Shown: in pieces, positions 12,253 to 64,000 of the stretch
Numbering within the stretch: position 1 is the first letter of the stretch
How the letters are laid out: every line of letters begins with the position of its first letter
Assembly: GCA_029582155.1 (NCBI GenBank)
Contig: CM055909.1
Coordinates: 16,990,534 to 17,054,533 of the forward strand
Length of the DNA stretch: 64,000 bases
Direction of reading: 5' to 3'
Source: Panopea generosa
Lineage: Eukaryota; Mollusca; Bivalvia; Adapedonta; Hiatellidae
Notes under the pieces: generated by a model
Seen by the model: only the letters and a program-made list of their open reading frames with translations
The model's database searches: none
What the model was told of the DNA's origin: nothing
Made by a program: the position numbers and the translations under genes

Positions 12253-12618
12253 TGATGAAGCGATGATCAAAGAATCATGAAACAATGATTAAATATCACA
12301 AAGCCATGAAAACATTTGATGAAGCAATGGTCAAACAATCATAAAACAATGATTAAATATTACAAAACAATGAAAACATCTTATGAAGCAATGGTCAAAC
12401 AATCATGAAACAATGATTAAAAATTACAAAGCCATAAAAAATTTGATGAAGAAATGGTCAAACAATCATGAAACAATGATTAAATATTACAAAACAAAGA
12501 AAACATTTTATGAAGCAATGGTCAAACAATCATGAAACAATGATTAAATATTACAAAGCCATGAAAACATTTGATGAAGCAATGGTCAAACAATCATTAA
12601 ACAATCATTAAAAATTAC
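12253..12618. repeat. 64-bp minisatellite, left part
   Basis: Five to six units built from GATGAAGCAATGGTCAAACA, ATCATGAAACAATGATTAAA and TATTACAAAGCCATGAAAAC. The array breaks off at ATTAC (12614-12618) and resumes in the same register at 13563. Confidence 0.9.
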
Positions 12619-13562: not shown

Positions 13563-14111
13563 ATTACAAAGCCATAAAAAATTTGATGAAGCAATGGTCA
13601 AACAATCATGAAACAATGATTAAATATTACAAAGCCATGAAAACATTTGATGAAGCAATGGTCAAACAATCATGAAACAATGATTAAATATTACAAAGCC
13701 ATGAAAAAGTTTGATGAAGCAATGGTCAAACAATCATGAAACAATGATTAAATATTACAAAGCCATAAAAAATTTGATAAAGCAATGGTCAAACAATCAT
13801 GAAACAATGATTAAATATTACAAAACAATGAAAACATCTTATGAAGCAATGGTCAAACAATCATGAAACAATGATTAAAAATTACAAAACCATAAAAAAT
13901 TTGATGAAGCAATGGTCAAACAATCATGAAACAATGATTAAATATTACAAAGCCATGAAAAAGTTTGATGAAGCAATGGTCAAACAATCATGAAACAATG
14001 ATTAAATATTACAAAGCCATAAAAAATTTGATAAAGCAATGGTCAAACAATCATGATATAATGATAAAATATTACAAAGCCATGAAAAAGTTTGATGAAG
14101 CAATGATTCAT
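13563..14111. repeat. 64-bp minisatellite, right part
   Basis: Eight to nine further units of the array seen at 12253-12618, in the same orientation. Confidence 0.9.
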
Positions 14112-14985
14112 CTGATAAAACAATGACTAGATTGGTGATCCATGTATTGAATACCTTGGCAAACTTGTTGGGCCATGTATTGAGTACCATGACTAGATTG
14201 GTTGGCTGTACAGTGAATACCAGGGCTAGACTGGTGGGCTGTAAAGTGAATACCATGACTAGATTAGTGGGCCATATAGTGAATACCATGACTAGATTGG
14301 TGGGCCATATAGTGAATACCATGACTAGATTGGTGGGCCATATAGTGAATACCATGGCTAGATTGGTGGGCTATATAGTGAAAACCAGGGCTATATAGTG
14401 AAAACAAGGGCTGTTTTGGTGGGCCGTATAGTGAATACCATGACTAGATTGGTGGGCCATATAGTGAATACCATGGCTTGATTGATGGGCCATATAGTGA
14501 ATACCAGGGCTATATTGGCGGGCTGTATAGTGAATGTCATGGCTAGATTGGTGGTCCATATAGTGAATATCAGGGCTGTATAGGTGGGCCGTATAGTGAA
14601 TACCATGACTAGATTGGTAGGCTTATAGTGAATACCATGGCTAGATTGGTGGGCCGTACAGTGAATACTGTGACTAGATTGGTGAGCTAATAGTGAATAC
14701 CATGGCTAGATTGATGGGTCGTACAGTGAATACCATGACTAGATTGGTGGACCGTACAGTGAATACCAGGGCTAGATTGGTTGGCCGTAGAGTGAATACC
14801 AGGGCTAGATTGGTGGGTCATACAGTGAAAACCATGACTAGATTGGTGGGCCGTAGAGTGAATACCATGACTAGATTAGTGGGCCGTAGAGTGAATACCA
14901 GGGCTAGATTTGTGGGCCATACAGTGAATACCACAACTAGATTGGTAGGACTTACAGTGAATGCCAGGGCTGTATTGATGAATCA
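14112..14985. repeat. 33-bp minisatellite in the presumptive 3' UTR of the ASB gene
   Basis: About 26 units of 33 bp: CATGACTAGATTGGTGGGCC plus ATATAGTGAATAC, with alternative CAGGGCTAG and GCCGTACAG variants. Because the unit is a multiple of 3, both strands carry 11-residue periodic open frames (plus: MTRLVGHIVNT). These are repeat artefacts. The array stops about 13 bp from the stop codon of the minus-strand ASB-type gene, so its minus strand should be transcribed as 3' UTR unless polyadenylation is immediate. Confidence 0.85.
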
Positions 14986-36200: not shown

Positions 36201-39200
36201 GGATTCTGCTATGGAGCTCATTAAATAAAAGCTTTGTAATTTACTCTTACCATTTTTAACTAACTTCTTCAGCTGTTCTACATCCCCTGACCTTGCAGCC
36301 TTGCATGCAGCTGGTATGTCTTTGCTCTCCTTGGTGACAGGTTCAGTCCTCCTTTTTGGTTCAGGCTTGCTATACAATATAGATTAAACTTAAGAGCTGA
36401 CAAATGATAGTAGTGGAGAGTTACTACAAGCAATGACTTAACAGACAAAGCCACTGATAGTCAAGACATGCAGCAGGGGTAAAATTGACCTCTTCTATTA
36501 CGTTGATGAGGCGAAATCATTGTAAGTCTGCAAGTGGCTTGATTATTTCTAAACACATCCCCTACAACCCCCCTCCCTCCCCACCCATACCACGTTACTC
36601 TTGAAATTCATGAAATTTGATTGTTGTCCAATTCTTAACATGCGTCATGACTCTATTAATTATACATGTAAACTATCATCTGGATGAGTAAAACTGACTT
36701 ATATTATGACTAAGAAAGACAACTTTGGGAGCCCTTTAAGTTCCAGTCATAATCTTGTCCACTCAACAGTTATACATAATCTTGTCAACTCTCAAGTTAT
36801 AATTGTGTTGAGTCTCTAGTCTTTTTGATGATGTCAATAAACTCTGGCATTACAACTGTGTCAGCTTTCCGGTTATAAATAATCTTGTCTACTGTCCTGT
36901 TATAATCTTGTCAACTCTCCTGTTATAGTCTTATCAACTCTCCTGTTATAGTCTTGTTCACTCATGCATTATAATTGTGTCAACTTTCCTGTTATAATTG
37001 TGTCAATTCTCCTGTTATAATCTGGTTAACTCTCCTGTTATAATTGTGTCAACTCTCCTTTTATAATTTTGTCAACTCTCCTGTTATAGTCTTGTCCACT
37101 GAATGCATTATAACTGTGTCGACTTTCCTGTTATAATTATGTTAACTCTCCTGTTATAGTCTTGTCCATTCATGCATTATAATTGTGTCAACTTTCCTGT
37201 TATAATTATGTTAACTCTCCTGTTATAAGTTTGTCAACTCTCCTGTTATAGTCTTGTCCACTCATGCATTATAATTGTGTCGACTTTCTTGTTATAATTG
37301 TGTTAACTCTCCTGTTATACTCTTGTCCACTCACACATTTTAATTCCTTCCTGTTATAATTGTGTAAACTCTCCTGTTATAATCTTATGAACTCTCCTGT
37401 TATAATTGTGTCAACTCTCCTGTTATAATTATGTTAACTCTCCTGTTATAATCTTGTCCACTCACACATTTTAATTCCCTCCTGTTATAATTGTGTAAAC
37501 TATCCAGTTATAATTATGTTAACTCTCCTGTTATAATCTTGTCTACTCACACATTTTAATTCCTTCCTGTTATAATTGTGTTAACTCTCCTGTTATAATC
37601 TTATGAACTGTCCTGTTATAATTGTGTCAACTCTCCTGTAATAATCTTGTCCACTCACACACTATAATTGTGTCAACTATCTTGTAATAATCTTGTCCAC
37701 TCACACACTATAATTGTGTCAACTCTTTTGTAATAATCTTGTCCACTCTCCTGTTATAATCTTGTCCACTCACACACTATAATTGTGTCAACTCTCTTGT
37801 AATAATCTTGTCCACTCTCCTGTTATAATCTTGTCCACTCACACACTATAATTGTGTCAACTCTCCTGTTATAATTGTGTCAACTCTCCTGTTATAATCT
37901 TGTCCACTCACACATTATAATTATGTCCACTCTCTGTTTATTATTGTGGCAACTCTAATGTTATAATTCTGTCCACTCACACATGATAATTGTGTCAACT
38001 CTCTGTTTATAATTGTGTCAACATTAATATTATAATCTTGTCCACTCACACATTATAATTGTGTCAACTCTTCTATTATAATTGTGTCAACTCTCCTGTT
38101 ATAATCTTGCCCACTCACAAACTATAATTGTGTCAACTTTCCAGTATAATATTGTCAACTCTTTGGTTATAATTGTTATAATTGTGTGAACTTTCCAATT
38201 ATAATCTTGTCAACTCTCCAGTTATAACCTTGTCAACTCTCCAGTTATAACTGTATCAACTCTCCGGTTATAATCTTGTCAACTCTCAAGTTATAATCTT
38301 GTCAACTCTCCAGTTATAACTGTATCAACTCTCCAGTTATAATCTTGTCAACTCTCCAGTTATAACTATCAATTCTCCAGTTATAATTTTGTCAACTCTC
38401 CAGTTATAACTGCATCAACTCTCCGGTTATAATCTTGTCAACTCTCCAGTTATAATCTTGTCAACTCTCCAGTAATTATAATCTTGTCAACTCTCCAGTT
38501 ATAACTGTATCAACTGTCCGGTAATAATCTTGTCAACTCTCCAGTTATAACTGTATCAACTCTCTGGTTATAGTCTTGTCAACTCTCCAGTTATAACTGT
38601 ATCAACTCTCCGGTTATAATTGTGTCAAGAAACTCTAGCGTTATAATATAATCTCATCATCTCTTGAGTTATAATTGTGTCAACTTTTTAGCTATTATTG
38701 TGTCAACTCTCCTGTTATAATTGTGCCAACTCTTTGATTGTAACTGTGTCAACTCTTTAATAACAATTGTGTTGAGTTTTCAGTTATGATCTTGTCAATG
38801 TCACATAAAACATTATTCATTCATAATCCTGTTACATGTAGAAGTTGCCTTGATTTCGTCATGATGTATTTCTAAATATAATAATTGTAACCTACTACTT
38901 ATCGTCACCATCATTGAAAAACAGGAAGTGTTCAATGTTGTCAAACTCATTACATATGGAATTATTTCTAGGTGGCCATACTGGTGGTGACTGGCTGTTA
39001 ATTAACAATCTGTGTACAGATAATACCTAGATGTTTATCCTATAAATGACAGCAATGTAAAATGTTTTATTCTCCACGGAAACAAAAAAAATCATTGGTG
39101 GTTTTACTACATAATGCACCAGTCAATTTTTGCCACGACTCCCCCCCCCACCACCCCCCCCCCCCCTCCCACCCCCAGGATGTGATATAGCGGAGAACAG

Positions 39201-42200
39201 CGGGGCCATTCTCTTATCCATTAACACCTCCCCCAGTGTTTTACTTTGAGTAAATAAAAATGTCATAAAATTTGTCATTGTCTAAAACAGCCAGCTGTAA
39301 GACTCAGACTTAAAAATATAAGATCCAAATAACATAATATATATTAAACAAGCAAATTACTACATTTACTTGCAAAAACAAGCAATTTTAATAATAATTC
39401 AACAGAAAAGGTTACAGGATCACATTTATTACCTATAATTGTAAGTTTACAGGGTTTTACAAAAAAATGAAAGATTTTGAGTGCCGAGTCCGATTCTCAG
39501 ACTCAAATTATTGATGAACTTATGCCCAGGGTAACAAACAACTGTTGCATAGAGACACAGTCAATTTTCCCTCCCCAATATGTTCTATTTAAATTATTTA
39601 ATTTATGTCAATTGTGAAACAAGTTATTACAACTTTGAAAAATCATGCTGAAGTCTTCCTGGGTAGAACCCTGGGTAGACATTCTACCAATGGACCACAC
39701 ACTCCCAGCTTTAAGGCAGCTTTACAAATGACTACTGTATAGTGACACAGTCAATTTTACCTGCCCACTATGACCTGGCCTACAGAAGGCAAGGTTACAA
39801 GCGACTGGTGCATAGTGACACAGTCAATTTTACCTGCCCACTATGTCCTGGCCTAAAGAAGGCAAGGTTACAAGCGACTAGTGCATAGTGACACAGTCAA
39901 TTTTACCTGCCAACTATGTCCTGACCTGGGAAGGGCAGGTTTACAAACGACTAGTGCATAGTGACAAAGTCAATGTCCTGGCCTGGGAAGGGCAGGGTTA
40001 CAAATGACTGGTGCATAGTAACACAGTCAACTTTACCTGCCCACAATGTCCTGGCCTACAGACGGCAGGGTTACAAATGACTGGTGCATAGTGACACTGT
40101 CAATTTTACCTACCCACTATGTCCTGGCCTACAGAGGGCAGGGTTACAAATGATTGGTGCATAGTGACACAGTCAATTTTACCTGCCCACTATGTGCTGT
40201 CCTGGGGAGGGCAGGTTTACAAACGACTGGTGCATAGTAACACAGTCAATTATACCTGCCTACAATGTCCTGACCTGGTGAGAGCAGGGATACAAACGAC
40301 TGGTGCATAGTGACACAGTCAATTTTACCTGCCCACTATGTCCTGGCCTACAGAGGGCAGGGATACAAACATCTGGTGCATAGTGACACAGTCAATTTTA
40401 CCTGCCCACTATGTCCTGGCCTACAGAGGGCAGGGATACAAACATCTGGTGCATAGTGACACAGTAAACTTTACCTGCCAACTATGTCCTGGCCTGGGGA
40501 GAGCAGGTTTACAAACGGCTGGAGCATAGTGACACAGTCAACTTTACCTGCCAACTATGTCCTGGCCTGGGGAGGGCAGGGTTACAAATGACTGGTGCTT
40601 AGTGACACAGTCAATTTTACCTGCCCACTATGTCTTGGCCTACAGAGGACAGGGTTACCAACAACTGATGCATAGTGACACAGTCAACTTTACCTGCCAA
40701 CTATGGTCTGGGGAGGTCTGGGGAGGGCAGGGTTACAAACGACTGGAGCATAGTGACACAGTCAACTTTACCTGCCAACTATGTCCTGGCCTGGGGAGAG
40801 CAGGGTTACAAATGACTGGTGGTTAGTGACACAGTCAATTTTACCTGCCCACTATGTCTTGGCCTACAGAGGGCAGGGTTACAAACAACGGATGCATAGT
40901 GACACAGTCAACATTACCTGCCAACTATGTCCTGGCCTGGGGAGAGCAGGGTTACAAATGACTGGTGCTTAGTGACACAGTCAATTTTACCTGCCCACTA
41001 TGTCTTGGCCTACAGAGGGCAGGGTTACAAACAACTGATGCATAGTGACACAGTCAACTTTACCTGCCCACTATGTCTTGGCCTTGGGAGAGCAGGTTTA
41101 CAAACGACTGGAGCATAGTGACACAGTCAACTTTACCTGCCAACTATGTCCTGGCCTGGGGAGAGCAGGGTTACAAATGACTGGTGCTTAGTGACACAGT
41201 CAATTTTACCTGCCCACTATGTCTTGGCCTACAGAGGGCAGGGTTACAAACAACTGATGCATAGTGACACAGTCAACTTTACCTGCCAACTATGTCCTGG
41301 CCTGGGGAGGGCAGGCTTACAAACGAAGGGTGCATAGTGACACAGTCAATTTTACCTGCCCACTATGTCCTGGCCTAGGGAGGGCAGGTTTACAAACGAC
41401 TGGTGCATAGTGACAAAGTCCATTTTACCTGCCCACTATGTCCTTGCCTGGGGAGGTCAGGTTTACAAACGACTGGTGCATAGTGACACATTTCATTTTA
41501 CCTGCCCACTATGTCCTGGCCTGGGAGGGCAGGGTTACAAACGACTGGTACATAGTGACAGTCAACTTTACCTTCCATCTATGTCCTGGCCTACAGAGGG
41601 CAGGGTTACAAATGACTGGTGCATAGTGACACAGTCAATTTTACCTGCCAACTATGTCCTGGCCTGGAGAGGGCAGGGTTACAAATGACTGGTGCATAGT
41701 GACACAGTCAAATTCACCTGCCAACTATGTCCTGGTCTGGGGAGGGCAGGTTAACAAACGTCTGGTGCATAGTGACACAGTCCATATTACCTCCCCACAA
41801 TGTTCTGACCTGGGGAGTTCAGGGTTACAAATAGCCTGATTAAATAAGGCGTGAAAGGGCGGCTTTTTTTATAATTTGGATTTCTGATTTGCTGTCGTAA
41901 GATGCAAAATAGAAATCTTTTAAAGGCTTCTAGAGATGTGCAATATATTGCACTAGGTTACAAACAGCCTATTAGGGTGCATAATGACAGTCAGTTTTAC
42001 CTGCCCTACACATCTTGACTTGGGGAGAGTAGTGTTACAAACTGATGCATAATTTCAGTCAATTTTATCAACATGCACACAGTATTATCTGAATAAACTC
42101 AGCTGTGGAAAAAGGGCATCGAGGAACAGAATTTTTGTTGAATAAAAAAAAAGTTTTGTAGGGTGGGGTACGAGTGTCTGACCAAAGAGATTCCAGATTG

Positions 42201-44373: not shown

Positions 44374-44634
44374 TTATCCTCTCTTGTGGAAAAGACAAAT
44401 TTTAAAGTTCCCTACTTCCTTCCGAAAAATGTTCCTTGGAGTAATCGGACCTGGAAAATACAAAAAAAGGTTAGTCAAGCTCAGCCAAATATTTATATAA
44501 GTTCCTGGGCTACCGGTGTCGCAACAGATAACTCTAATGATGTCAGTAGTAACGTACATATAAACGTATCTACTTACATAAGTCCGCAAGTGAGGTCCAC
44601 AATATCTCATCCTTTCTATAAAACATATAGGCCC

Positions 44635-45056
44635 ACGATGGTACAACGTGCACCGGATATTGCCCTAAAGTGATAAGATTTTTACCAATTTTCAGCATGA
44701 TTTTTGTCAACAAGGTCAATTCTAACATAATTATCGAGTGTTTTTTTGTGACTACAACATAAACTATCTATGTGATTATACAGGAAATCACTCAAAACTA
44801 CACTGGAATGATGAAACTTGCGATTCTCTGTCACCCTTATCATTTTATCACCGGGTGCCATGTGCACATTTTACTCAATATCGTTTTATTTTTGCCATGT
44901 TGTGAAAATTCTGAATCGAACAATTTAGTAAGTAAGACGCATAAAACAAGTATGTTCAATTTCAGGGTTGTATCTAATGAAACGGCCGAGACATAGGACT
45001 AAAACAAAAATCGTCAGTGTACTGGGGACTGTATTTATGTGTACTGGGTATTGATC
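44635..45056 (-). mobile_element. Dispersed ~450-bp element, copy left of the 2.95-kb array
   Basis: The reverse complement of 58232-58690: shared blocks include GTGCACCGGATATTGCCCTA, AGTGATAAGATTTTTACC, CCGGGTGCCATGTGCACATT and GTGTACTGGGTATTG. About 80% alike by eye. No coding capacity and no recognised family. Confidence 0.75.
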
Positions 45057-45575: not shown

Positions 45576-45754
45576 TTAAAGGGGAACGCAACCCTGTATA
45601 TAAAACAGGATAATATGAATAGCTATGAGTTCAGCTTTCTATTAAAAGTATTATTATGCCTAAATTCGAGTCTATAAAGATATATCAGCTCGTTTTGTAA
45701 CGGTTATTTTCGCACATCGACTTTGTGGTGGAAGTCGCCATATTGGATACCTGC

Positions 45755-45777
45755 GTGACGTCATAACTGCACTTCCG
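45755..45777 (+). promoter_or_regulatory. CRE + ETS motifs in the left subterminal inverted repeat
   Basis: A full CREB/ATF site TGACGTCA (45756-45763) is followed by CACTTCCGG (45770-45778), an ETS-type site, about 90-110 bp before the P2X7-like ATG. The 23-bp block is repeated perfectly, inverted, at 48314-48336. Same positions +2953, +5906 and +8859 in the other copies. Function is inferred from motif identity only. Confidence 0.55.
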
Positions 45778-45865
45778 GTTTAAAACATAATTGATTTATA
45801 CGCTACAGCAGATATAGAAACGTGCAATTATAGTCACCGGCAAAGGTACTCGCAAAAATAATAAA

Positions 45866-46177
45866 ATGAATTTTAGTAACGGAGAAGGACCTGTGGCCTA
45901 CAACTTTGAACCAGAATTTTCAAAAGCAGAGTTAAATGAATTAGAAAACGAGTGAAATAGTGAGACGGCACAGTTGTTCACACATGTGAAAGATTTTTGC
46001 AGCTGCGGAAACTGTGTAATGCTGCTTTCGTCTGACGAAAATACGTGCTGCAGCTGCAATGACCATACTATTGGAAATTTAGTAGATTTAGAATGTATCA
46101 CAGAAATAATACAGCAATGTTTTATGAAGGCTTCACCCAAAAAGATGATAACTGTTAAACAGTCACACCGATCATGA
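45866..46177 (+). pseudogene. P2X7 cytoplasmic-domain-like ORF, copy 1
   Basis: From the ATG at 45866 the frame reads MNFSNGEGPVAYNFEPEFSK AELNELENE, meets TGA at codon 30, and continues in frame to a Met at codon 37 and a Cys-rich part: FCSCGNCVMLLSSDENTCC ... ECITEIIQQCF. The spacing CxCGxC ... CC ... CIT ... F matches the zinc-binding cytoplasmic 'ballast' domain of P2X7 receptors (human: WCQCGHC ... LCC ... CITTSELF). Relatives of this domain are, as I recall, widespread as stand-alone or transposon-linked genes in molluscs and cnidarians. No channel domain is present. The TGA is in all four copies, so either translation starts at codon 37 (67 aa) or the ORF is dead. A CRE/ETS-like block lies ~100 bp upstream. 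Confidence 0.65.
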
Positions 46178-46727
46178 ACCAGAGATCAAACCCGAAACCC
46201 ATCAATCACGACTCTGACATCTTATCATGTAGCCTGACATTGGTGATTGAATTTTTCAAAATAGTAAAATTACCCATAGCTTGATAAAAATTTAATTATT
46301 GCCGTCAGTGTTGATGTAGATCCAGGCGAGCCTGCACATTCATACTGTACTATCAGGGTATATACTGTTTGCTACTCAGTCAATACATTATAAAAAAAAC
46401 AAAACCTATTTAGACCAGGAATCGAATTTAAGGGAAAATGTTTTGTTACATATATTTACCTGTCTAAGAGAGAATAAAGAAAAATAATATTATATCTCTT
46501 TTCTTATCGTGTTTAGCTGGTGCGGCCATTGTTTCGTACTGAGAAATGGCTGATAATTTTTTTATTTCATACCCATTTTGGTAAATTTACATGAAGCATG
46601 AATGAGTTTTTTTTTGTGTTTTTTTTGTTGTTTCACATAACTGGCACTGTCTTTTGGTTATTCAAATGGTGTTACTACCCAATTTGATATATGGTGATTA
46701 TCTATTCCACCAGTTCCCTGAACATGT

Positions 46728-46970
46728 ATGAATGTTGTTCCTTATAGGGAGTGTCATATGGAATATAATGTCTACAGGCATATTGCACAAAGTGTATGTT
46801 ACTGTCCAGCTACTGGCACCCTGCTGAGCTTTCATAATTCACCAACACCACATTCACACCATGTGGTAATGAGAAATACCCTGCCACAGTGTGCATATTG
46901 TACCCTAATAAGCGTAATCACCCCAGGTTTAATGACCCCAGGGTTTATGACAGGATGTTATATCACATAG
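46728..46970 (+). other. 80-codon frame of unknown meaning in the 2.95-kb unit
   Basis: Reads MNVVPYRECHMEYNVYRHIA then QSVCYCPATGTLL. The YNVYRHIAQSVCYC stretch faintly recalls the 'YRxxAYRxFxxW' segment that follows the cysteine cluster in P2X7-type domains, and TTATAG|GGAG before it could be a splice acceptor. That would make it a downstream exon of the same gene. Weak evidence. Copies at 49681-49923, 52634-52876 and 55587-55829 appear identical. Confidence 0.3.
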
Positions 46971-47334
46971 TATTATGCCTTACTACCGATTAAAACATTT
47001 TCAGTTAATTAGGGTTTCAATATCAATGCAAACTTACAAGTAATAAAATTATGTTATATGATTTTATGAATATTTTTCATAAATTGTATACCAGAACACT
47101 TTTTTAACAGTAAAAAAAAAAATTTCATGAATTTTTGAATAAATAAAGGAACAAAGGTTTTACTTTATCTTTTTTCATTACGAAGTAGAGGTAGTTCAAA
47201 TGTATATTCACGAATAATGACCTTGTTGACTGTGAAAAAGCCATATATCAATAAACTAAATTGCCTATTAATTATAAAATTAATAAAATGATTTTATGAC
47301 CAATTAAATGTTGACTGAATATTAAGCATCATTT

Positions 47335-47597
47335 TTTGCCATCGAGGGCTTACTGTACAGATGTTCAGTTAACCTAACCACTGTTTCCTGAAAAGTTAAC
47401 CAGTACTCGAGCACACCCAACAACCGCAAGTAACTGATAATTTTCCCACTCGAATCAGCAGTGAGAGACAAATGATATTGAGACACAATTTTGTATGTCA
47501 ATCATCACAGAGACTGTCGCCGGGTGGGGATTCAAACTCGAGACACCTGGATTGATTGTTAGACACTTAACTGACTGAGCTAATCGGGCCTGTCACA
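47335..47597 (-). mobile_element. SINE family D inside the 2.95-kb unit, copy 1
   Basis: Minus strand: GGCCCGATTAGCTCAGTCAG (A box), TCGAGTTTGAATCCCCACC (B box), then body CAGTCTCTGTGATGATTGAC, GTGTCTCAATATCATT and an end near GCCCTCGATGGC. The same family lies in direct orientation just right of the array at 57478-57735. Confidence 0.75.
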
Positions 47598-48313
47598 ATT
47601 AATTAGCCTTAATTTGTATTTTAATAATAACTTTTAGATACCATGTCGTTTTCACACCTTATGTTTTGGCATTAACCTCTTGTTTTTATTGTTAATTGGT
47701 TTATTACACCTGTTCAAACAGCCTGCAATTATAAGATTGTGAAAGTTTGCTATATCAATTTCGCAATATTTTGGAAGAGTATATAAAATTACAAATTAAA
47801 TTTCAGAAATCAGTTGAGCTATATGTTATTAGCACATTTTTAAGAGCTTCCCACTGGATAATATACACTTAGTCTATATGTATGTCGCATATGGTCATCT
47901 TCGTACTGAAATCATCAGAAATTGCAGCTTGGATAGTAGTACGCCAAGGCATTGGTACGCTTCATTCTGCAATCTTAAGTCCTACCCCAAAGTATAAAGG
48001 CGTTTTGCGCGTGATGTCACCAGAAGCTTGACACTGAGGCAATGTGAAATCACATATTAGGAAAACAAAAAACAATGCTGCCCACAAAACATATCGCATT
48101 ACTCCACCCACTTATTCCGCTGGAGAAAACAATGTTTAATGGGTTAAGTCCTTCAATTCAGAATCGTTTTCGCGTTTAATTGTCTACCTTCGATGTTCAC
48201 TAATGCACTGTATATCTGTATATAAACTGATTACGTATATTAGTGTATATACATAAGAGTTTCAGTAGAGAGCAGTCACTAACGACACAATACAATTTGC
48301 GCGATAACTAGAA

Positions 48314-48374
48314 CGGAAGTGCAGTTATGACGTCACCGAATACCTCCATCACAAAAGAGCTACAAAATGGCGGC
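48314..48374 (-). promoter_or_regulatory. Right subterminal inverted repeat with CRE, ETS and YY1-like motifs
   Basis: Carries the inverted CRE/ETS block, then AAAATGGCGGC (48364-48374), a strong YY1-type site. It faces outward-in like the left block, so each unit has promoter-like sequence at both ends. Repeated in copies 2-4. Confidence 0.5.
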
Positions 48375-48818
48375 GCCCATAGCATTTAGGAAACGCTTGA
48401 AATCATGATATTTAATGTCATTTTTCTCATTTGATAAATTTCGTACAATTAAAATTTGTTGATTTTTGTGTTATTTACATGTCTATTTAACGATAAATAG
48501 CCATTTATATTCTGACGTGCGGTACCCTTTAAAGGGGAACGCAACCCTGTATATAAAACAGGATAATATGAATAGCTATGAGTTCAGCTTTCTATTAAAA
48601 GTATTATTATGCCTAAATTCGAGTCTGTAAAGATATATCAGCTCGTTTTGTAACGGTTATTTTCGCACATCGACTTTGTGGTGGAAGTCGCCATATTGGA
48701 TACCTGCGTGACGTCATAACTGCACTTCCGGTTTAAAACATAATTGATTTATACGCTACAGCAGATATAGAAACGTGCAATTATAGTCACCGGCAAAGGT
48801 ACTCGCAAAAATAATAAA

Positions 48819-49130
48819 ATGAATTTTAGTAACGGAGAAGGACCTGTGGCCTACAACTTTGAACCAGAATTTTCAAAAGCAGAGTTAAATGAATTAGAAA
48901 ACGAGTGAAATAGTGAGACGGCACAGTTGTTCACACATGTGAAAGATTTTTGCAGCTGCGGAAACTGTGTAATGCTGCTTTCGTCTGACGAAAATACGTG
49001 CTGCAGCTGCAATGACCATACTATTGGAAATTTAGTAGATTTAGAATGTATCACAGAAATAATACAGCAATGTTTTATGAAGGTTTCACCCAAAAAGATG
49101 ATAACTGTTAAACAGTCACACCGATCATGA
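48819..49130 (+). pseudogene. P2X7-like ORF, copy 2
   Basis: Identical to copy 1 apart from Ala to Val in the MKASPKK segment (here MKVSPKK). The same TGA at codon 30. Confidence 0.65.
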
Positions 49131-50287
49131 ACCAGAGATCAAACCCGAAACCCATCAATCACGACTCTGACATCTTATCATGTAGCCTGACATTGGTGAT
49201 TGAATTTTTCAAAATAGTAAAATTACCCATAGCTTGATAAAAATTTAATTATTGCCGTCAGTGTTGATGTAGATCCAGGCGAGCCTGCACATTCATACTG
49301 TACTATCAGGGTATATACTGTTTGCTACTCAGTCAATACATTATAAAAAAAACAAAACCTATTTAGACCAGGAATCGAATTTAAGGGAAAATGTTTTGTT
49401 ACATATATTTACCTGTCTAAGAGAGAATAAAGAAAAATAATATTATATCTCTTTTCTTATCGTGTTTAGCTGGTGCGGCCATTGTTTCGTACTGAGAAAT
49501 GGCTGATAATTTTTTTATTTCATACCCATTTTGGTAAATTTACATGAAGCATGAATGAGTTTTTTTTTGTGTTTTTTTTGTTGTTTCACATAACTGGCAC
49601 TGTCTTTTGGTTATTCAAATGGTGTTACTACCCAATTTGATATATGGTGATTATCTATTCCACCAGTTCCCTGAACATGTATGAATGTTGTTCCTTATAG
49701 GGAGTGTCATATGGAATATAATGTCTACAGGCATATTGCACAAAGTGTATGTTACTGTCCAGCTACTGGCACCCTGCTGAGCTTTCATAATTCACCAACA
49801 CCACATTCACACCATGTGGTAATGAGAAATACCCTGCCACAGTGTGCATATTGTACCCTAATAAGCGTAATCACCCCAGGTTTAATGACCCCAGGGTTTA
49901 TGACAGGATGTTATATCACATAGTATTATGCCTTACTACCGATTAAAACATTTTCAGTTAATTAGGGTTTCAATATCAATGCAAACTTACAAGTAATAAA
50001 ATTATGTTATATGATTTTATGAATATTTTTCATAAATTGTATACCAGAACACTTTTTTAACAGTAAAAAAAAAAATTTCATGAATTTTTGAATAAATAAA
50101 GGAACAAAGGTTTTACTTTATCTTTTTTCATTACGAAGTAGAGGTAGTTCAAATGTATATTCACGAATAATGACCTTGTTGACTGTGAAAAAGCCATATA
50201 TCAATAAACTAAATTGCCTATTAATTATAAAATTAATAAAATGATTTTATGACCAATTAAATGTTGACTGAATATTAAGCATCATTT

Positions 50288-50550
50288 TTTGCCATCGAGG
50301 GCTTACTGTACAGATGTTCAGTTAACCTAACCACTGTTTCCTGAAAAGTTAACCAGTACTCGAGCACACCCAACAACCGCAAGTAACTGATAATTTTCCC
50401 ACTCGAATCAGCAGTGAGAGACAAATGATATTGAGACACAATTTTGTATGTCAATCATCACAGAGACTGTCGCCGGGTGGGGATTCAAACTCGAGACACC
50501 TGGATTGATTGTTAGACACTTAACTGACTGAGCTAATCGGGCCTGTCACA
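50288..50550 (-). mobile_element. SINE family D, copy in unit 2
   Basis: Carried passively as part of the tandem unit. Confidence 0.75.
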
Positions 50551-51771
50551 ATTAATTAGCCTTAATTTGTATTTTAATAATAACTTTTAGATACCATGTC
50601 GTTTTCACACCTTATGTTTTGGCATTAACCTCTTGTTTTTATTGTTAATTGGTTTATTACACCTGTTCAAACAGCCTGCAATTATAAGATTGTGAAAGTT
50701 TGCTATATCAATTTCGCAATATTTTGGAAGAGTATATAAAATTACAAATTAAATTTCAGAAATCAGTTGAGCTATATGTTATTAGCACATTTTTAAGAGC
50801 TTCCCACTGGATAATATACACTTAGTCTATATGTATGTCGCATATGGTCATCTTCGTACTGAAATCATCAGAAATTGCAGCTTGGATAGTAGTACGCCAA
50901 GGCATTGGTACGCTTCATTCTGCAATCTTAAGTCCTACCCCAAAGTATAAAGGCGTTTTGCGCGTGATGTCACCAGAAGCTTGACACTGAGGCAATGTGA
51001 AATCACATATTAGGAAAACAAAAAACAATGCTGCCCACAAAACATATCGCATTACTCCACCCACTTATTCCGCTGGAGAAAACAATGTTTAATGGGTTAA
51101 GTCCTTCAATTCAGAATCGTTTTCGCGTTTAATTGTCTACCTTCGATGTTCACTAATGCACTGTATATCTGTATATAAACTGATTACGTATATTAGTGTA
51201 TATACATAAGAGTTTCAGTAGAGAGCAGTCACTAACGACACAATACAATTTGCGCGATAACTAGAACGGAAGTGCAGTTATGACGTCACCGAATACCTCC
51301 ATCACAAAAGAGCTACAAAATGGCGGCGCCCATAGCATTTAGGAAACGCTTGAAATCATGATATTTAATGTCATTTTTCTCATTTGATAAATTTCGTACA
51401 ATTAAAATTTGTTGATTTTTGTGTTATTTACATGTCTATTTAACGATAAATAGCCATTTATATTCTGACGTGCGGTACCCTTTAAAGGGGAACGCAACCC
51501 TGTATATAAAACAGGATAATATGAATAGCTATGAGTTCAGCTTTCTATTAAAAGTATTATTATGCCTAAATTCGAGTCTATAAAGATATATCAGCTCGTT
51601 TTGTAACGGTTATTTTCGCACATCGACTTTGTGGTGGAAGTCGCCATATTGGATACCTGCGTGACGTCATAACTGCACTTCCGGTTTAAAACATAATTGA
51701 TTTATACGCTACAGCAGATATAGAAACGTGCAATTATAGTCACCGGCAAAGGTACTCGCAAAAATAATAAA

Positions 51772-52083
51772 ATGAATTTTAGTAACGGAGAAGGACCTGT
51801 GGCCTACAACTTTGAACCAGAATTTTCAAAAGCAGAGTTAAATGAATTAGAAAACGAGTGAAATAGTGAGACGGCACAGTTGTTCACACATGTGAAAGAT
51901 TTTTGCAGCTGCGGAAACTGTGTAATGCTGCTTTCGTCTGACGAAAATACGTGCTGCAGCTGCAATGACCATACTATTGGAAATTTAGTAGATTTAGAAT
52001 GTATCACAGAAATAATACAGCAATGTTTTATGAAGGTTTCACCCAAAAAGATGATAACTGTTAAACAGTCACACCGATCATGA
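51772..52083 (+). pseudogene. P2X7-like ORF, copy 3
   Basis: As copy 2 (MKVSPKK), with the TGA retained. Confidence 0.65.
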
Positions 52084-53240
52084 ACCAGAGATCAAACCCG
52101 AAACCCATCAATCACGACTCTGACATCTTATCATGTAGCCTGACATTGGTGATTGAATTTTTCAAAATAGTAAAATTACCCATAGCTTGATAAAAATTTA
52201 ATTATTGCCGTCAGTGTTGATGTAGATCCAGGCGAGCCTGCACATTCATACTGTACTATCAGGGTATATACTGTTTGCTACTCAGTCAATACATTATAAA
52301 AAAAACAAAACCTATTTAGACCAGGAATCGAATTTAAGGGAAAATGTTTTGTTACATATATTTACCTGTCTAAGAGAGAATAAAGAAAAATAATATTATA
52401 TCTCTTTTCTTATCGTGTTTAGCTGGTGCGGCCATTGTTTCGTACTGAGAAATGGCTGATAATTTTTTTATTTCATACCCATTTTGGTAAATTTACATGA
52501 AGCATGAATGAGTTTTTTTTTGTGTTTTTTTTGTTGTTTCACATAACTGGCACTGTCTTTTGGTTATTCAAATGGTGTTACTACCCAATTTGATATATGG
52601 TGATTATCTATTCCACCAGTTCCCTGAACATGTATGAATGTTGTTCCTTATAGGGAGTGTCATATGGAATATAATGTCTACAGGCATATTGCACAAAGTG
52701 TATGTTACTGTCCAGCTACTGGCACCCTGCTGAGCTTTCATAATTCACCAACACCACATTCACACCATGTGGTAATGAGAAATACCCTGCCACAGTGTGC
52801 ATATTGTACCCTAATAAGCGTAATCACCCCAGGTTTAATGACCCCAGGGTTTATGACAGGATGTTATATCACATAGTATTATGCCTTACTACCGATTAAA
52901 ACATTTTCAGTTAATTAGGGTTTCAATATCAATGCAAACTTACAAGTAATAAAATTATGTTATATGATTTTATGAATATTTTTCATAAATTGTATACCAG
53001 AACACTTTTTTAACAGTAAAAAAAAAAATTTCATGAATTTTTGAATAAATAAAGGAACAAAGGTTTTACTTTATCTTTTTTCATTACGAAGTAGAGGTAG
53101 TTCAAATGTATATTCACGAATAATGACCTTGTTGACTGTGAAAAAGCCATATATCAATAAACTAAATTGCCTATTAATTATAAAATTAATAAAATGATTT
53201 TATGACCAATTAAATGTTGACTGAATATTAAGCATCATTT

Positions 53241-53503
53241 TTTGCCATCGAGGGCTTACTGTACAGATGTTCAGTTAACCTAACCACTGTTTCCTGAAAA
53301 GTTAACCAGTACTCGAGCACACCCAACAACCGCAAGTAACTGATAATTTTCCCACTCGAATCAGCAGTGAGAGACAAATGATATTGAGACACAATTTTGT
53401 ATGTCAATCATCACAGAGACTGTCGCCGGGTGGGGATTCAAACTCGAGACACCTGGATTGATTGTTAGACACTTAACTGACTGAGCTAATCGGGCCTGTC
53501 ACA
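53241..53503 (-). mobile_element. SINE family D, copy in unit 3
   Basis: Carried as part of the tandem unit. Confidence 0.75.
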
Positions 53504-54724
53504 ATTAATTAGCCTTAATTTGTATTTTAATAATAACTTTTAGATACCATGTCGTTTTCACACCTTATGTTTTGGCATTAACCTCTTGTTTTTATTGTTA
53601 ATTGGTTTATTACACCTGTTCAAACAGCCTGCAATTATAAGATTGTGAAAGTTTGCTATATCAATTTCGCAATATTTTGGAAGAGTATATAAAATTACAA
53701 ATTAAATTTCAGAAATCAGTTGAGCTATATGTTATTAGCACATTTTTAAGAGCTTCCCACTGGATAATATACACTTAGTCTATATGTATGTCGCATATGG
53801 TCATCTTCGTACTGAAATCATCAGAAATTGCAGCTTGGATAGTAGTACGCCAAGGCATTGGTACGCTTCATTCTGCAATCTTAAGTCCTACCCCAAAGTA
53901 TAAAGGCGTTTTGCGCGTGATGTCACCAGAAGCTTGACACTGAGGCAATGTGAAATCACATATTAGGAAAACAAAAAACAATGCTGCCCACAAAACATAT
54001 CGCATTACTCCACCCACTTATTCCGCTGGAGAAAACAATGTTTAATGGGTTAAGTCCTTCAATTCAGAATCGTTTTCGCGTTTAATTGTCTACCTTCGAT
54101 GTTCACTAATGCACTGTATATCTGTATATAAACTGATTACGTATATTAGTGTATATACATAAGAGTTTCAGTAGAGAGCAGTCACTAACGACACAATACA
54201 ATTTGCGCGATAACTAGAACGGAAGTGCAGTTATGACGTCACCGAATACCTCCATCACAAAAGAGCTACAAAATGGCGGCGCCCATAGCATTTAGGAAAC
54301 GCTTGAAATCATGATATTTAATGTCATTTTTCTCATTTGATAAATTTCGTACAATTAAAATTTGTTGATTTTTGTGTTATTTACATGTCTATTTAACGAT
54401 AAATAGCCATTTATATTCTGACGTGCGGTACCCTTTAAAGGGGAACGCAACCCTGTATATAAAACAGGATAATATGAATAGCTATGAGTTCAGCTTTCTA
54501 TTAAAAGTATTATTATGCCTAAATTCGAGTCTATAAAGATATATCAGCTCGTTTTGTAACGGTTATTTTCGCACATCGACTTTGTGGTGGAAGTCGCCAT
54601 ATTGGATACCTGCGTGACGTCATAACTGCACTTCCGGTTTAAAACATAATTGATTTATACGCTACAGCAGATATAGAAACGTGCAATTATAGTCACCGGC
54701 AAAGGTACTCGCAAAAATAATAAA

Positions 54725-55036
54725 ATGAATTTTAGTAACGGAGAAGGACCTGTGGCCTACAACTTTGAACCAGAATTTTCAAAAGCAGAGTTAAATGAAT
54801 TAGAAAACGAGTGAAATAGTGAGACGGCACAGTTGTTCACACATGTGAAAGATTTTTGCAGCTGCGGAAACTGTGTAATGCTGCTTTCGTCTGACGAAAA
54901 TACGTGCTGCAGCTGCAATGACCATACTATTGGAAATTTAGTAGATTTAGAATGTATCACAGAAATAATACAGCAATGTTTTATGAAGGTTTCACCCAAA
55001 AAGATGATAACTGTTAAACAGTCACACCGATCATGA
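54725..55036 (+). pseudogene. P2X7-like ORF, copy 4
   Basis: As copy 2 (MKVSPKK), with the TGA retained. Confidence 0.65.
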
Positions 55037-56193
55037 ACCAGAGATCAAACCCGAAACCCATCAATCACGACTCTGACATCTTATCATGTAGCCTGACATT
55101 GGTGATTGAATTTTTCAAAATAGTAAAATTACCCATAGCTTGATAAAAATTTAATTATTGCCGTCAGTGTTGATGTAGATCCAGGCGAGCCTGCACATTC
55201 ATACTGTACTATCAGGGTATATACTGTTTGCTACTCAGTCAATACATTATAAAAAAAACAAAACCTATTTAGACCAGGAATCGAATTTAAGGGAAAATGT
55301 TTTGTTACATATATTTACCTGTCTAAGAGAGAATAAAGAAAAATAATATTATATCTCTTTTCTTATCGTGTTTAGCTGGTGCGGCCATTGTTTCGTACTG
55401 AGAAATGGCTGATAATTTTTTTATTTCATACCCATTTTGGTAAATTTACATGAAGCATGAATGAGTTTTTTTTTGTGTTTTTTTTGTTGTTTCACATAAC
55501 TGGCACTGTCTTTTGGTTATTCAAATGGTGTTACTACCCAATTTGATATATGGTGATTATCTATTCCACCAGTTCCCTGAACATGTATGAATGTTGTTCC
55601 TTATAGGGAGTGTCATATGGAATATAATGTCTACAGGCATATTGCACAAAGTGTATGTTACTGTCCAGCTACTGGCACCCTGCTGAGCTTTCATAATTCA
55701 CCAACACCACATTCACACCATGTGGTAATGAGAAATACCCTGCCACAGTGTGCATATTGTACCCTAATAAGCGTAATCACCCCAGGTTTAATGACCCCAG
55801 GGTTTATGACAGGATGTTATATCACATAGTATTATGCCTTACTACCGATTAAAACATTTTCAGTTAATTAGGGTTTCAATATCAATGCAAACTTACAAGT
55901 AATAAAATTATGTTATATGATTTTATGAATATTTTTCATAAATTGTATACCAGAACACTTTTTTAACAGTAAAAAAAAAAATTTCATGAATTTTTGAATA
56001 AATAAAGGAACAAAGGTTTTACTTTATCTTTTTTCATTACGAAGTAGAGGTAGTTCAAATGTATATTCACGAATAATGACCTTGTTGACTGTGAAAAAGC
56101 CATATATCAATAAACTAAATTGCCTATTAATTATAAAATTAATAAAATGATTTTATGACCAATTAAATGTTGACTGAATATTAAGCATCATTT

Positions 56194-56456
56194 TTTGCCA
56201 TCGAGGGCTTACTGTACAGATGTTCAGTTAACCTAACCACTGTTTCCTGAAAAGTTAACCAGTACTCGAGCACACCCAACAACCGCAAGTAACTGATAAT
56301 TTTCCCACTCGAATCAGCAGTGAGAGACAAATGATATTGAGACACAATTTTGTATGTCAATCATCACAGAGACTGTCGCCGGGTGGGGATTCAAACTCGA
56401 GACACCTGGATTGATTGTTAGACACTTAACTGACTGAGCTAATCGGGCCTGTCACA
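56194..56456 (-). mobile_element. SINE family D, copy in unit 4
   Basis: Carried as part of the tandem unit. Confidence 0.75.
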
Positions 56457-57477
56457 ATTAATTAGCCTTAATTTGTATTTTAATAATAACTTTTAGATAC
56501 CATGTCGTTTTCACACCTTATGTTTTGGCATTAACCTCTTGTTTTTATTGTTAATTGGTTTATTACACCTGTTCAAACAGCCTGCAATTATAAGATTGTG
56601 AAAGTTTGCTATATCAATTTCGCAATATTTTGGAAGAGTATATAAAATTACAAATTAAATTTCAGAAATCAGTTGAGCTATATGTTATTAGCACATTTTT
56701 AAGAGCTTCCCACTGGATAATATACACTTAGTCTATATGTATGTCGCATATGGTCATCTTCGTACTGAAATCATCAGAAATTGCAGCTTGGATAGTAGTA
56801 CGCCAAGGCATTGGTACGCTTCATTCTGCAATCTTAAGTCCTACCCCAAAGTATAAAGGCGTTTTGCGCGTGATGTCACCAGAAGCTTGACACTGAGGCA
56901 ATGTGAAATCACATATTAGGAAAACAAAAAACAATGCTGCCCACAAAACATATCGCATTACTCCACCCACTTATTCCGCTGGAGAAAACAATGTTTAATG
57001 GGTTAAGTCCTTCAATTCAGAATCGTTTTCGCGTTTAATTGTCTACCTTCGATGTTCACTAATGCACTGTATATCTGTATATAAACTGATTACGTATATT
57101 AGTGTATATACATAAGAGTTTCAGTAGAGAGCAGTCACTAACGACACAATACAATTTGCGCGATAACTAGAACGGAAGTGCAGTTATGACGTCACCGAAT
57201 ACCTCCATCACAAAAGAGCTACAAAATGGCGGCGCCCATAGCATTTAGGAAACGCTTGAAATCATGATATTTAATGTCATTTTTCTCATTTGATAAATTT
57301 CGTACAATTAAAATTTGTTGATTTTTGTGTTATTTACATGTCTATTTAACGATAAATAGCCATTTATATTCTGACGTGCGGTACCCTTTAATGTTATCTG
57401 ATTATTTTGCTTATTTCTATATTATTTGACAAATACTTTAGGCAAGATGCATGTTTGTCTTTTCTCGGAGCCGGGCC

Positions 57478-57735
57478 AATTAGCTCAGTCGGTAGTGCGT
57501 TGGACTAAAAATCCAGAGGTATTGAGTTCAAATCGCCAGTCGGGCCACAGTCTCCGTGATGATTGATATACGACAGCGTGTCTCATTATCATTCATCTTT
57601 CATCACTAACTCAAATAAGAAAGTTATCAGTTACTTTTGGAGATGTTTGTGCTCAGGTAATGATCCCCGTAAAAAGTGGTTATGTTAAATGATCCTCTGT
57701 TAGCCCTCGATAACATAAAACTGACGCTAACTATT
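57478..57735 (+). mobile_element. SINE family D, free copy right of the array
   Basis: Head GGGCCAATTAGCTCAGTCGG ... TTGAGTTCAAATCGCC with anticodon loop CTAAAAA. Body CAGTCTCCGTGATGATTGAT, CGTGTCTCATTATCATT and end TTAGCCCTCGATAAC. The fused body rules out a plain tRNA gene. An ATTCAATCAATCAATC microsatellite-like tail follows. Confidence 0.75.
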
Positions 57736-58231
57736 CATTCAATCAATCAATCATTCCTCGGAATAGAATAGTTCTTCATTTTATTGAAATAGTCGCTGTT
57801 GAGGTCAGTTTCAGAAAATCAAGCGACGAAGATTATAAAGACTGTCAGTCATATAGTATGACTGTGTGCCAATGTGTTGTTTTATTATAATGGATTATAA
57901 CTGATTGCCCATTTTGGTGATTTAGATCGCTTTTTAAAACTATCAAATCAAACGGAAACGTGTTCGGGATTAAACGCTGTAAATGTTAAATTCTCATATT
58001 TAAATGTTTAATATTTAATTTGTATCGAAACATTTAAAGCGAAAAGTTAATTATAGCACTCAGTTTTCATAATGAAAATAATAAAACATAAACATCTACC
58101 TTTTTAAGTCTACACGTACCAAGCGCAAATTTTAAAGCCATAAATGGAATGAAATGTGCTTGCAGGGACCGAGAAATGTAGAACGATGGCACCAATTATC
58201 ACGTTTTTAAATGACAATCCCTTAAAACACA
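57736..58231. other. AT-rich spacer, nothing recognised
   Basis: No supportable feature. Confidence 0.45.
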
Positions 58232-58690
58232 ATGCAATACCCAGTACACCTATATGAGAACAAATTCAATCCCCGGTACACCGCCGATGTTTTAGTCCTA
58301 TTTCTCGGCCATTTCATTAGATACAACCCTGAAATCGAGTGTACCTTGTTCTATGTGTCTAACGTAATAAATTGTTCGATTCAGAATTTTCACAACATGG
58401 CACAAATAAGACGATGTTGAGTAAAATGTGCACATGGCACCCGGTGATAAAATGATAAGGTTGACAGAGATCAAGTTTTATCATTCCAGTATAGTTTTGA
58501 GTGATTTCCAGTCTTGTAAAGCATTTGCACATTAGTGACTTAATAATCACATTGAAAATTCATGTTGTAGTCACCAGAAAACACAAGATAATTAGGTTTG
58601 AACTGACCTTGTTGACAAAAGTCATGCTGAATTTTGGTAAAAATCTTATCACTTTAGGGCAATATCCGGTGCACGTTGTACCACCGTGAG
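58232..58690 (+). mobile_element. Dispersed ~450-bp element, copy right of the array
   Basis: Inverted relative to 44635-45056. Starts CAATACCCAGTACAC and ends GTGCACGTTGTACCACCGTG. It is placed so that the two copies face each other across the tandem array. Confidence 0.75.
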
Positions 58691-61224: not shown

Positions 61225-61994
61225 CAAAACAGTTAATTGGATACATGATAATGATAGCTTTATTGACGAAGAAACTTCACCTCCCCCGCCCTCTAAAACA
61301 GTTGGTAGGATTGGTAATTATGACAGCTTTATATTGAGCAACACAGTTGATTACTACAGCTTTATATGCCATGACACTACCAACACAGTTGATGGCTACA
61401 GCTTTATTGACCATGGCACTGCTAAAACAGTTGGTAGGCCTCGTGATTATTAACGCTTTATTGACAATATCAGATGGTTCTTATAGCTTTATTGACCACG
61501 ACACTGACATAATAGTTGGTTATTACAGCTTTATTGACCACGACACTACCAAAACATTTGATTATTACAGCTTTATTGACAACACTACCAAAACATTTGA
61601 TTATTGCAGCTTTATTGAACACGACACTACATAAATAGTTGATTATTACAGCTTTATTGAACACGACACTACTAAAACAGTAGATTAATACAGCTTAAAT
61701 GAGCAGGAATGTTCCAAAACTGTTGATTATTATAGCCTTATTGACTTTGACACAACCAAAACAGTTGATGATTACAGCTTTATTGACAAAAAACAGTCGA
61801 TTATTACAGCTATATTGACTATGACACTACCAAAAACAGTTGATTATTAAAGTTTTATTGACCACAATACTACCAAATCAGTTAATTATTGCAGCTTTAT
61901 TGACCATGACACTACCAAAACAATTGATTTTTACAGCTTTATTGAACAAAAACAGTTGATTATTACAATTTTATTGATAAAAACAATCAAAACA
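61225..61994. repeat. 42-bp minisatellite in SDR intron 3
   Basis: Units like TTGATTATTACAGCTTTATT + GACCACGACACTACCAAAAC + AG, about 18 copies here with many length variants. The same array continues at 62455-63125 and 63768-64000. Frames such as DYYSFIDHDTTKT repeats come from the array. Confidence 0.9.
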
Positions 61995-63302
61995 GATCTT
62001 GTTGTTACATAAAAGCTGTGCATGTTTGGTTAAGATTCAATGAAAAATGAAGGTGCTTTCGTGTCTACAACACTTTCCCTATGTAACTCTAAGTAAAACA
62101 GTGACCCCTGTCGCAACTCCAAATTTAACACGACTTCAACAAATCTTTAAGGGTACCATCCATGTAATGCTACATGTCAAATATCTAAGGTTTAGGCCTT
62201 GAACTTTCAGAGACAATGTTTTTTAAAGTTTCATTTAAAATGTGCTTATAAGCCCTATGGCAGGGGCATTTGTGTTCAAATCACACTGGTTTAAGAACTC
62301 GTCCTAGATCTTGTGGTTATATAACTGCTGTGGAAGTTTGGTTTACCAAAGATTCAATGAAAATGAAGGTGCTTTCGCGTCTAAAAGAAAAAGGTAAACG
62401 TCTAGACGGACGACAGCCAATTTACCATGACATAAGCCCTGCTGGCATTTGAACAGTACAGCTAAAAAACAGTCGATTATTACAGCTTTATTGACCATAA
62501 CACTACCAAAATAGTTAATATTTACAGCTTTATTGACCAAAACAGTTGATTATTAAAGCTTTACTGACCACAATATTACCAAAAAAACAGCCGAATATTA
62601 CAGTTTTAACCACTATAATTGTTGATTATTACAGCTTTATTGACCTCAATATTGCAAAAAACAAAACAGTTGATTATAACAGCCTTATTGACCATAACAC
62701 TACCAAAACAGTTTATTATTACAGCTTCATTCACAAAAACAGTTGATTATTACAATTTTATTGATAAAAACAATCAAAACAGTTGCTTATGACAGCTTTA
62801 TTGACTGAAATCAGTTGGTTATCACAGCTTTATTAATAATGCCCCCAACCAAAATGGTTGATTATGACAGCTTATTAACATTAACAGTTGATTATTACAG
62901 CTTTATTGACCACACAGTCCAAAAACAGTAAATTATTAAAGCTTCAACCTCTAAAATAGTCTATTATTACAGCTTTATTGACCAAAATATTGAGATAGAA
63001 CCTCAACAGTTGATTTTTACAGCTTCATTAACAATAACACCACCAAAACAGTAGATTAATGCAGCTTTATTGCCCAAAACAGTTATTATTACAGCTTTGT
63101 TGACGACAATATTACAGAAAACAAGAGGCCCAAGAGGACCTGCATCGCTCTACTCGCAACAGATACTATATGTGAAATATCTACGGTCTAGGCCTTTAAC
63201 TTTCAGAGAAAATGTTTTTTTTAAATTTTACTTGAAATGTGCTTATAAGCCCTGTGGCGGGTGCATTTGTGGTGGAATTGTGCTGGTTTAAGAAATTGTC
63301 CA
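61995..63302. repeat. 1308-bp segment, first copy of a direct duplication
   Basis: A non-minisatellite block (61995-62455: AGATCTTGTTGTTACATAAA ... GACATAAGCCCTGCTGGCAT) plus a stretch of the 42-bp array, repeated with a 1308-bp offset. Sequence near 63125-63302 is a third, more diverged copy of part of the block (GTGCTTATAAGCCCTGTGGC). Confidence 0.85.
63125..63302 (+). mobile_element. Short dispersed repeat, head 'AAGAGGCCCAAGAGGACC'
   Basis: ACAAGAGGCCCAAGAGGACC TGCATCGCTC resembles the heads of bivalve short interspersed elements. It continues into the diverged copy of the duplicated block, suggesting that the block itself is such an element. Confidence 0.5.
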
Positions 63303-64000
63303 AGATCTTGTTGTTACATAAAAGCTGTGCATGTTTGGTTTAGATTCAATGAAAAATGAAGGTGCTTTCGTGTCTACAACACTTTCCCTATGTAACTCTA
63401 AGTAAAACAGTGACCCCTGTCGCAACTCCAAATTTAACACGACTTCAACAAATCTTTAAGGGGACCTCCATGTAATGCTACATGTCAAATATCTAAGGTT
63501 TAGGCCTTGAACTTTCAGAGACAATGTTTTTTAAAGTTTCATTTAAAATGTGCTTATAAGCCCTATGGCAGGGGCATTTGTGTTCAAATCACACTGGTTT
63601 AAGAACTCGTCCTAGATCTTGTGGTTATATAACTGCTGTGGAAGTTTGGTTTACCAAAGATTCAATGAAAATGAAGGTGCTTTCGCGTCTACAAGAAAAA
63701 GGTAAACGTCTAGACGGACGACAGCCAATTTACCATGACATAAGCCCTGCTGGCATTTGAACAGTACAGCTAAAAAACAGTCGATTATTACAGCTTTATT
63801 GACCATAACACTACCAAAATAGTTAATATTTACAGCTTCATTGACCAAAACAGTTGATTATTAAAGCTTTACTGACCACAATATTACCAAAAAAACAGCC
63901 GAATATTACAGTTTTAACCACTATAATTGTTGATTATTACAGCTTTATTGACCTCAATATTGCAAAAAACAAAACAGTTGATTATAACAGCCTTATTGAC
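63303..64000. repeat. Second copy of the 1308-bp duplication, cut by the window edge
   Basis: Nearly identical to 61995-62692. Differences seen include AAGGGTACCATCC versus AAGGGGACCTCC near 62150/63460. Confidence 0.85.

Follow-up and report, generated by a model that had tools for sequence, protein, structure and literature searches.

Organization of the array

The window analysed here is a 64,000-nucleotide stretch of the genome of the bivalve Panopea generosa (contig CM055909.1, positions 16,990,534 to 17,054,533), and positions 45576-57391 of it are occupied by a tandem array of a transposon of apparent Kolobok type. The array consists of four 2,953-bp units (2,949 bp plus one TTAA), all on the + strand and arranged head to tail, with a single TTAA at every unit junction and at both outer edges. 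The units start at 45576, 48529, 51482 and 54435, and the terminal TTAA ends at 57391. When lags from 2945 to 2961 were compared, 2953 was the sole lag with high self-identity. Two columns in total vary across the four units: at offset 98, unit 2 has G and the other three have A, and at offset 555, unit 1 has C and the others have T. The lag and column analyses confirm the original prediction, which had described four TTAA-bounded units in one orientation with an exact 2953-bp period and two differences. Other sequence adjoins the outer TTAA on both sides.

Unit 1, including both of its TTAAs, spans 45576..48532 and is set apart by the C at 46131. Unit 2 (48529..51485) shares the TTAAs at 48529-48532 and 51482-51485 with its neighbors and differs by the G at 48627. 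Unit 3 (51482..54438), which shares the TTAAs at 51482-51485 and 54435-54438, is exactly the same as unit 4 (54435..57391), and the latter closes the array with the outer TTAA at 57388-57391. We regard the array as real and young, with a Kolobok-type element amplified where it stood; our confidence in its anatomy is high.

In unit 1 the left terminal inverted repeat, TTAA included, occupies 45576..45604 on the + strand, where AGGGG directly follows the TTAA. The right one, at 48504..48532 on the - strand, agrees with it at 22 of 29 positions. The imperfect inverted ends reported earlier are therefore real: 18 of 25 positions still agree when the TTAA is left out, a value reached by none of 20,000 random inner pairs. 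A subterminal inverted repeat of 28 nt (93%), with its left arm at 45755..45782 (+) pairing with a right arm at 48309..48336 (-), is located about 180-225 bp inside the unit ends. Exact direct repeats between the terminal 400 bp of the unit reach at most 11 bp, and a repeat search of the unit found no long direct-repeat pair between its ends. Each unit contains 32 TTAAs, mostly internal.

A single ancestor for the window array

All four units carry three substitutions and one insertion that none of the nine single copies compared possesses. The substitutions are at 46054, 46243 and 47204 of unit 1, and the insertion is of one base in a T run at 46607, all on the + strand. The variant at 46243 was the one of the four taken through a genome-wide private-marker test, and the 28 bases around it were found at exactly four places genome-wide, each within the window array. 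The window units lie closest to the single copy L001, from which 3-4 bases and one gap separate them. Because the four shared variants are absent from the nine single copies and one of them is confined to the array genome-wide, the sequences argue with high confidence that the array descends from one copy. Repeated insertion of separate elements, which had been offered as one origin, finds no support here. Four changes precede the amplification and two follow it; therefore, leaving conversion aside, the amplification looks to have occurred after insertion.

Tandem junctions throughout the genome

The genome sequence searched comprises 1.47 Gb in 39 contigs and contains 844 left ends and 802 right ends of the element, at no more than two mismatches of 34. 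With three mismatches tolerated at most, 17 junctions of a right end to a left end through one TTAA were found (14 without a mismatch, three with one), while a reversed-pattern control gave no match in the genome. These head-to-tail junctions fall at 13 loci, namely ten dimers, two trimers and the window tetramer. None of the four patterns used for inverted junctions found one: head-to-head and tail-to-tail arrangements were absent genome-wide at up to three mismatches and with a central gap of 0-15. All nine single copies examined end at TTAAAGGG and have TTAA at both outer ends. Dispersed copies bounded elsewhere, which would have spoken against the earlier view, did not turn up among them, and that view of a young TTAA transposon with array boundaries at the transposon ends is borne out. 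The outer TTAA is intact on both sides in 11 of the 13 arrays; 9 bp are missing from the right end of array C3a and 76 bp from the left end of array C4.

The 30 bases adjoining the arrays differ among all 13 loci on both sides. In flanks of up to 1,500 bp, only short dispersed-repeat matches were found between loci, with 282 bp in the right flank of array C19. The unit types also mostly differ among the array loci. The C3b dimer (L037) lies within a minisatellite-like tandem repeat, as judged by many offset matches between its flanks.

Three further loci were considered and rejected. L040 (2461-6720) holds a complete copy on the minus strand and, opposite it across a short central filler, a partial copy on the plus strand. 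It was rejected as a collapsed head-to-head insertion pair, since its mirrored outer flanks are mutual reverse complements and indicate an inverted duplication of the locus together with its flank. L041 and L042 were rejected as arrays because they are neighboring separate insertions, each with its own TTAAs. The two copies at L042 (2091-8866) have the same orientation, are 99.4% identical and lie 863 bp apart, perhaps owing to a local hop.

Similarity of units within and between arrays

Base differences between units are present in 9 of the 13 arrays. Adjacent units differ at 0-4 bases in 11 arrays and at 14 in C21b, not counting some small gaps and the missing ends of C3a and C4. We compared 28 units from 12 arrays, excluding C19 and including one C3a and one C4 unit without an end. 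The median difference was 0.03% for pairs within arrays (n=21) and 4.1% for pairs between arrays (n=357), with overlap at the extremes (0.48% within, 0.42% between). Within each of the 12 arrays the units are more alike than they are to anything else in the comparison set, which consisted of the remaining arrays and, out of about 800 single copies, seven that could be used. Single ancestry is likely for the other 11 arrays with similar units, and only likely because copies of one burst can be nearly as similar. The suggestion that the units are actively homogenised does not hold as a rule, since one array keeps 14 differences and another 3-5%.

In trimer C3a, units 2 and 3 have a derived base that neither unit 1 nor any of the 33 other rows scored shows, the L002 row being left out. 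The growth of this array seems to have been stepwise or through conversion. The adjacent units of C19 (L033) differ by about 5% in their first part and 3.4% in their second. Unit 2 of this array carries a 2,149-bp insertion of other sequence with TACC on both sides. Compared with the unit of the C11 array, the second part of unit 2 is at most 1 base in 1,550 off and its first part 14 in 1,417.

Identity of the unit

The unit starts with AGGGG and ends with CCCT, each adjoining a TTAA. These termini fit the 5'-RR...YY-3' pattern of Kolobok transposons, for which TTAA duplication is also described (PMC9587614; here and below, statements on published systems refer to parts of the cited papers). 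T2-MITEs, a group of miniature inverted-repeat transposable elements (MITEs) presumed to be Kolobok, similarly have a TTAA target and a terminal AGGRR (PMC6004289). The unit has inverted ends and, according to the open-reading-frame list of the stretch, no frame longer than 95 aa, yet at 2.95 kb it is long for a MITE.

The Kol0 lineage of Kolobok encodes a transposase and KolX, a protein resembling the C-terminus of P2X7 (PMC9587614). A putative remnant of a broken KolX-like frame is located at 45866..46177 (+) of unit 1, with an in-frame stop and the remainder lost; its match to PF20478, the P2X7 C-terminal domain, has an E value of 0.031 and is below the cut-off. PF20478 has 48 matches in the genome, and two of these places, L048 and L049, were examined in part. 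L048, on contig C7, opens with the same TTAAAGGGGAACGCAACCCTG end as the unit and is 92.6% identical over the unit's first 530 bp (45576..46105, +). It has an intact-looking open KolX frame (PF20478, E=2.4e-8). L049, a second KolX locus, was set aside, as it has no left end in common with the unit.

On C7, a 349-aa open stretch with DVWH is found on the opposite strand about 1 kb past the KolX matches. It gave sub-threshold Pfam matches only (HipA_2, E=0.0085; MULE transposase, E=0.051). A C/DxxH motif is common to five superfamilies including Kolobok (PMC9587614). This stretch has 117 matches in the genome, and five of them, on C7, C19, C17, C14 and C13, reach 98-100% and have open frames 533-646 aa long. 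KolX matches stand beside the transposase-like frame at all five places, two each at C7, C19, C17 and C14 and one at C13. At each locus the KolX matches and the transposase-like frame are on opposite strands (C7:13633966-13637000, C19:13735640-13738675, C17:21200861-21203896, C14:55801148-55804167 and C13:18069928-18072081). The five near-identical loci are candidates for the active source of the family.

On these features we class the unit as a Kol0-like member of Kolobok that is non-autonomous. The assignment to Kolobok follows from the TTAA, the AGGGG...CCCT termini and the left end common to the KolX-bearing relative. PiggyBac and Kolobok had both been named as duplicators of TTAA; the termini and the KolX relative uphold Kolobok, and piggyBac was rejected because the unit starts with AGGGG and not with the terminal CC[C/T]T motif by which piggyBac is defined (PMC2872659). 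KolobokP was rejected since the unit lacks long terminal direct repeats. Satellite DNA was rejected as well, the arrays having two to four units at each of 13 loci and not the many units of long satellite arrays.

Every unit also carries a dispersed-repeat piece, at 47311..47590 on the - strand in unit 1, which by eye is perhaps derived from a tRNA-related short interspersed element (SINE); ARAGORN found no tRNA in unit 1. A 70% relative of this repeat lies just past the right edge of the array, at 57473-57742.

Origin of the arrays

The account that we favor, with a probability of roughly 55%, is one insertion of a Kolobok-type element at a TTAA, followed by multiplication in place through transposase-linked joining and then unequal exchange. 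Its starting points are shown by the sequences: the single ancestor of the window array, junctions that are exclusively head to tail through a single TTAA, and recurrence at 13 loci. A non-autonomous Kol0-like element, presumably mobilised in trans by transposase from larger relatives, would insert once at a TTAA. The right end of one copy would then be joined through one TTAA to the left end of its sister copy to give a dimer. The likeliest route would be transposase acting on the ends of two sister chromatids, or recombination of an excised, TTAA-closed circle into the resident copy, and our confidence in any choice between the two is low. In maize, Ac ends on sister chromatids can generate tandem duplications, albeit with different products (PMC3744419, PMC4270019). 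Unequal exchange between the 2.95-kb direct repeats would afterwards bring the dimer to four units.

We place moderate confidence in transposase-linked joining as the founding step. Homologous crossing-over is unable to found the dimer because the unit ends have only TTAA in register. Once there is a dimer, unequal exchange adds further complete units without altering the outer ends, whatever the position of the crossover. The objection raised earlier, that unequal exchange does not explain a period starting exactly at the transposon end, thus holds for the first dimer and fails for later growth. The base shared by units 2 and 3 of C3a, as stepwise growth predicts, and the five near-identical transposase-like copies with open frames also count for the favored account. 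It is conceivable, though rather doubtful, that Kolobok transposase regularly pairs the right and left ends of sister copies, leaving a dimer on one chromatid and a clean empty site on the other. If so, transposase-driven unequal sister exchange would let a cut-and-paste element multiply with no need of a new target and would seed satellite-like arrays.

Among the alternatives, the one that survives best is still unlikely. Microhomology or replication slippage between the flanking TTAAs would found the dimer without transposase, with unequal exchange following. The product would be the same, and slippage has been proposed for the coral CMITE arrays (PMC2872659). However, a 4-bp repeat at a spacing of 2.95 kb has very many counterparts, and exact use of the transposon ends at 12 loci would be odd, an objection that comes from a search of end junctions only and hence from no controlled comparison.

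Next, and a little less probable, is local re-insertion, in which an excised sister copy enters a TTAA flanking the copy on the other sister in either orientation, and inverted products are lost as unstable palindromes. Near-identical units and a single TTAA would be accounted for, and the L042 pair with its separate TTAAs is what local hops would yield. The absence of inverted junctions speaks against it and extends genome-wide to junctions with a central gap of 0-15, although the patterns are blind to larger central deletions.

Weaker again is double insertion, the chief route suggested for the Drosophila dimers, by which separate copies successively enter the terminal TTAA of a resident copy. 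It would agree with the TTAA preference, and such dimers are common according to reviews of McGurk and Barbash 2018. C19, where two clearly different elements are linked head to tail via one TTAA, fits an ordinary double insertion. The shared private variants exclude this origin for the window array. Chance entry into the terminal TTAAs of 844 copies, taken at the TTAA density of the window, predicts about 0.05 dimers in any orientation, and most of the 32 TTAAs in a unit are internal. Orientation should moreover be random, whereas 13 of 13 arrays are head to tail and none was found inverted; by simple arithmetic the chance of this is about 1 in 8,000 if orientation is random and all products survive.

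An assembly artefact is very improbable: C21 and C27 are small contigs and the array is seen in the assembly only, but a local error is unlikely because the 13 loci have different flanks and mostly different unit types, and every break falls at transposon ends while units differ by bases in 9 of the 13 arrays.

Several points weigh against the account of one insertion multiplied in place. Palindrome instability may remove inverted pairs and leave head-to-tail arrays alone, which lowers the weight of the 13 of 13 orientation, and inverted junctions with larger central deletions would be missed by our patterns. The census of tandem duplications covers those with breakpoints at the element ends. 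The arrays are known from the assembled sequence of one genome alone. For the 11 other arrays with similar units, single ancestry is drawn from similarity alone, and young single copies differ by as little as 2 bases. The private marker of C27 occurs at 9 places in the genome, 2 in the array and 7 outside, and C19 does agree with double insertion. Finally, the larger relative is linked to the unit by its left end.

Relation to known transposon arrays

The unit agrees with the Kol0 lineage in TTAA duplication and RR...YY termini, and the relative with its left end has KolX-like and transposase-like frames; it differs in being non-autonomous (PMC9587614). It resembles the T2-MITEs of Xenopus in the TTAA target, the terminal AGGRR motif and the lack of autonomy, though the host is another and the likeness is one of described features (PMC6004289). 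The KolobokP elements of molluscs, too, form head-to-tail Kolobok multimers between target duplications, for which models of unequal crossover or of circles have been put forward. KolobokP, however, has long terminal direct repeats, while TTAA alone is common to the ends here (PMC9587614).

Full-length head-to-tail dimers of DNA transposons are known in Drosophila (McGurk and Barbash 2018, via reviews) and are ascribed mainly to insertion site preference (PMC7214746, PMC12628747). In contrast, the units here look copied from one resident in 12 of 13 arrays, as is shown for the window array. Bari1 of D. melanogaster is likewise a cut-and-paste transposon in head-to-tail arrays, for which a circle or rolling origin has been proposed. 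The Bari1 arrays have about 80 and 6 copies, are heterochromatic and miss two bases per copy, whereas at the 13 loci described here the ends are exact and each array has 2-4 copies (PMC8834629). The coral CMITE arrays are tandem TTAA elements with highly similar units, for which slippage was inferred over independent insertion; CMITEs are unlike our unit in being piggyBac-like MITEs of about 100 bp, some with spacers between units (PMC2872659).

Tandem transposon dimers are thus already known. What appears new is the occurrence of end-to-end Kol0-like arrays at 13 loci with no long repeats and mostly near-identical units. Such arrays were not met in the literature searched, which is no proof that none is in print. 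Double insertion, or else recombination between long repeats, is the usual explanation of how transposons come to form tandem arrays. The present family lacks long end repeats and has 13 end-to-end arrays in one genome, one of them shown to derive from a single copy and 11 more looking so. The founding step becomes testable at these TTAAs, and a possible active source element is indicated. Recurrence at twelve other places helps to ask how tandem DNA arrays begin.

Sequences surrounding the window array

An inverted repeat pair, 44634-45053 and 58235-58688, brackets the array at about 0.5 and 0.8 kb from its edges and is about 81% alike over 461 bp. The window is also crowded with unrelated minisatellite arrays, which have periods of about 23-73 bp and up to about 80 copies by program count. 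They are located at 1-1751, 12245-14971, 18100-21041, 23835-24624, 26485-28597, 31657-33933, 36879-38756, 39722-41831 and 61339-63878.

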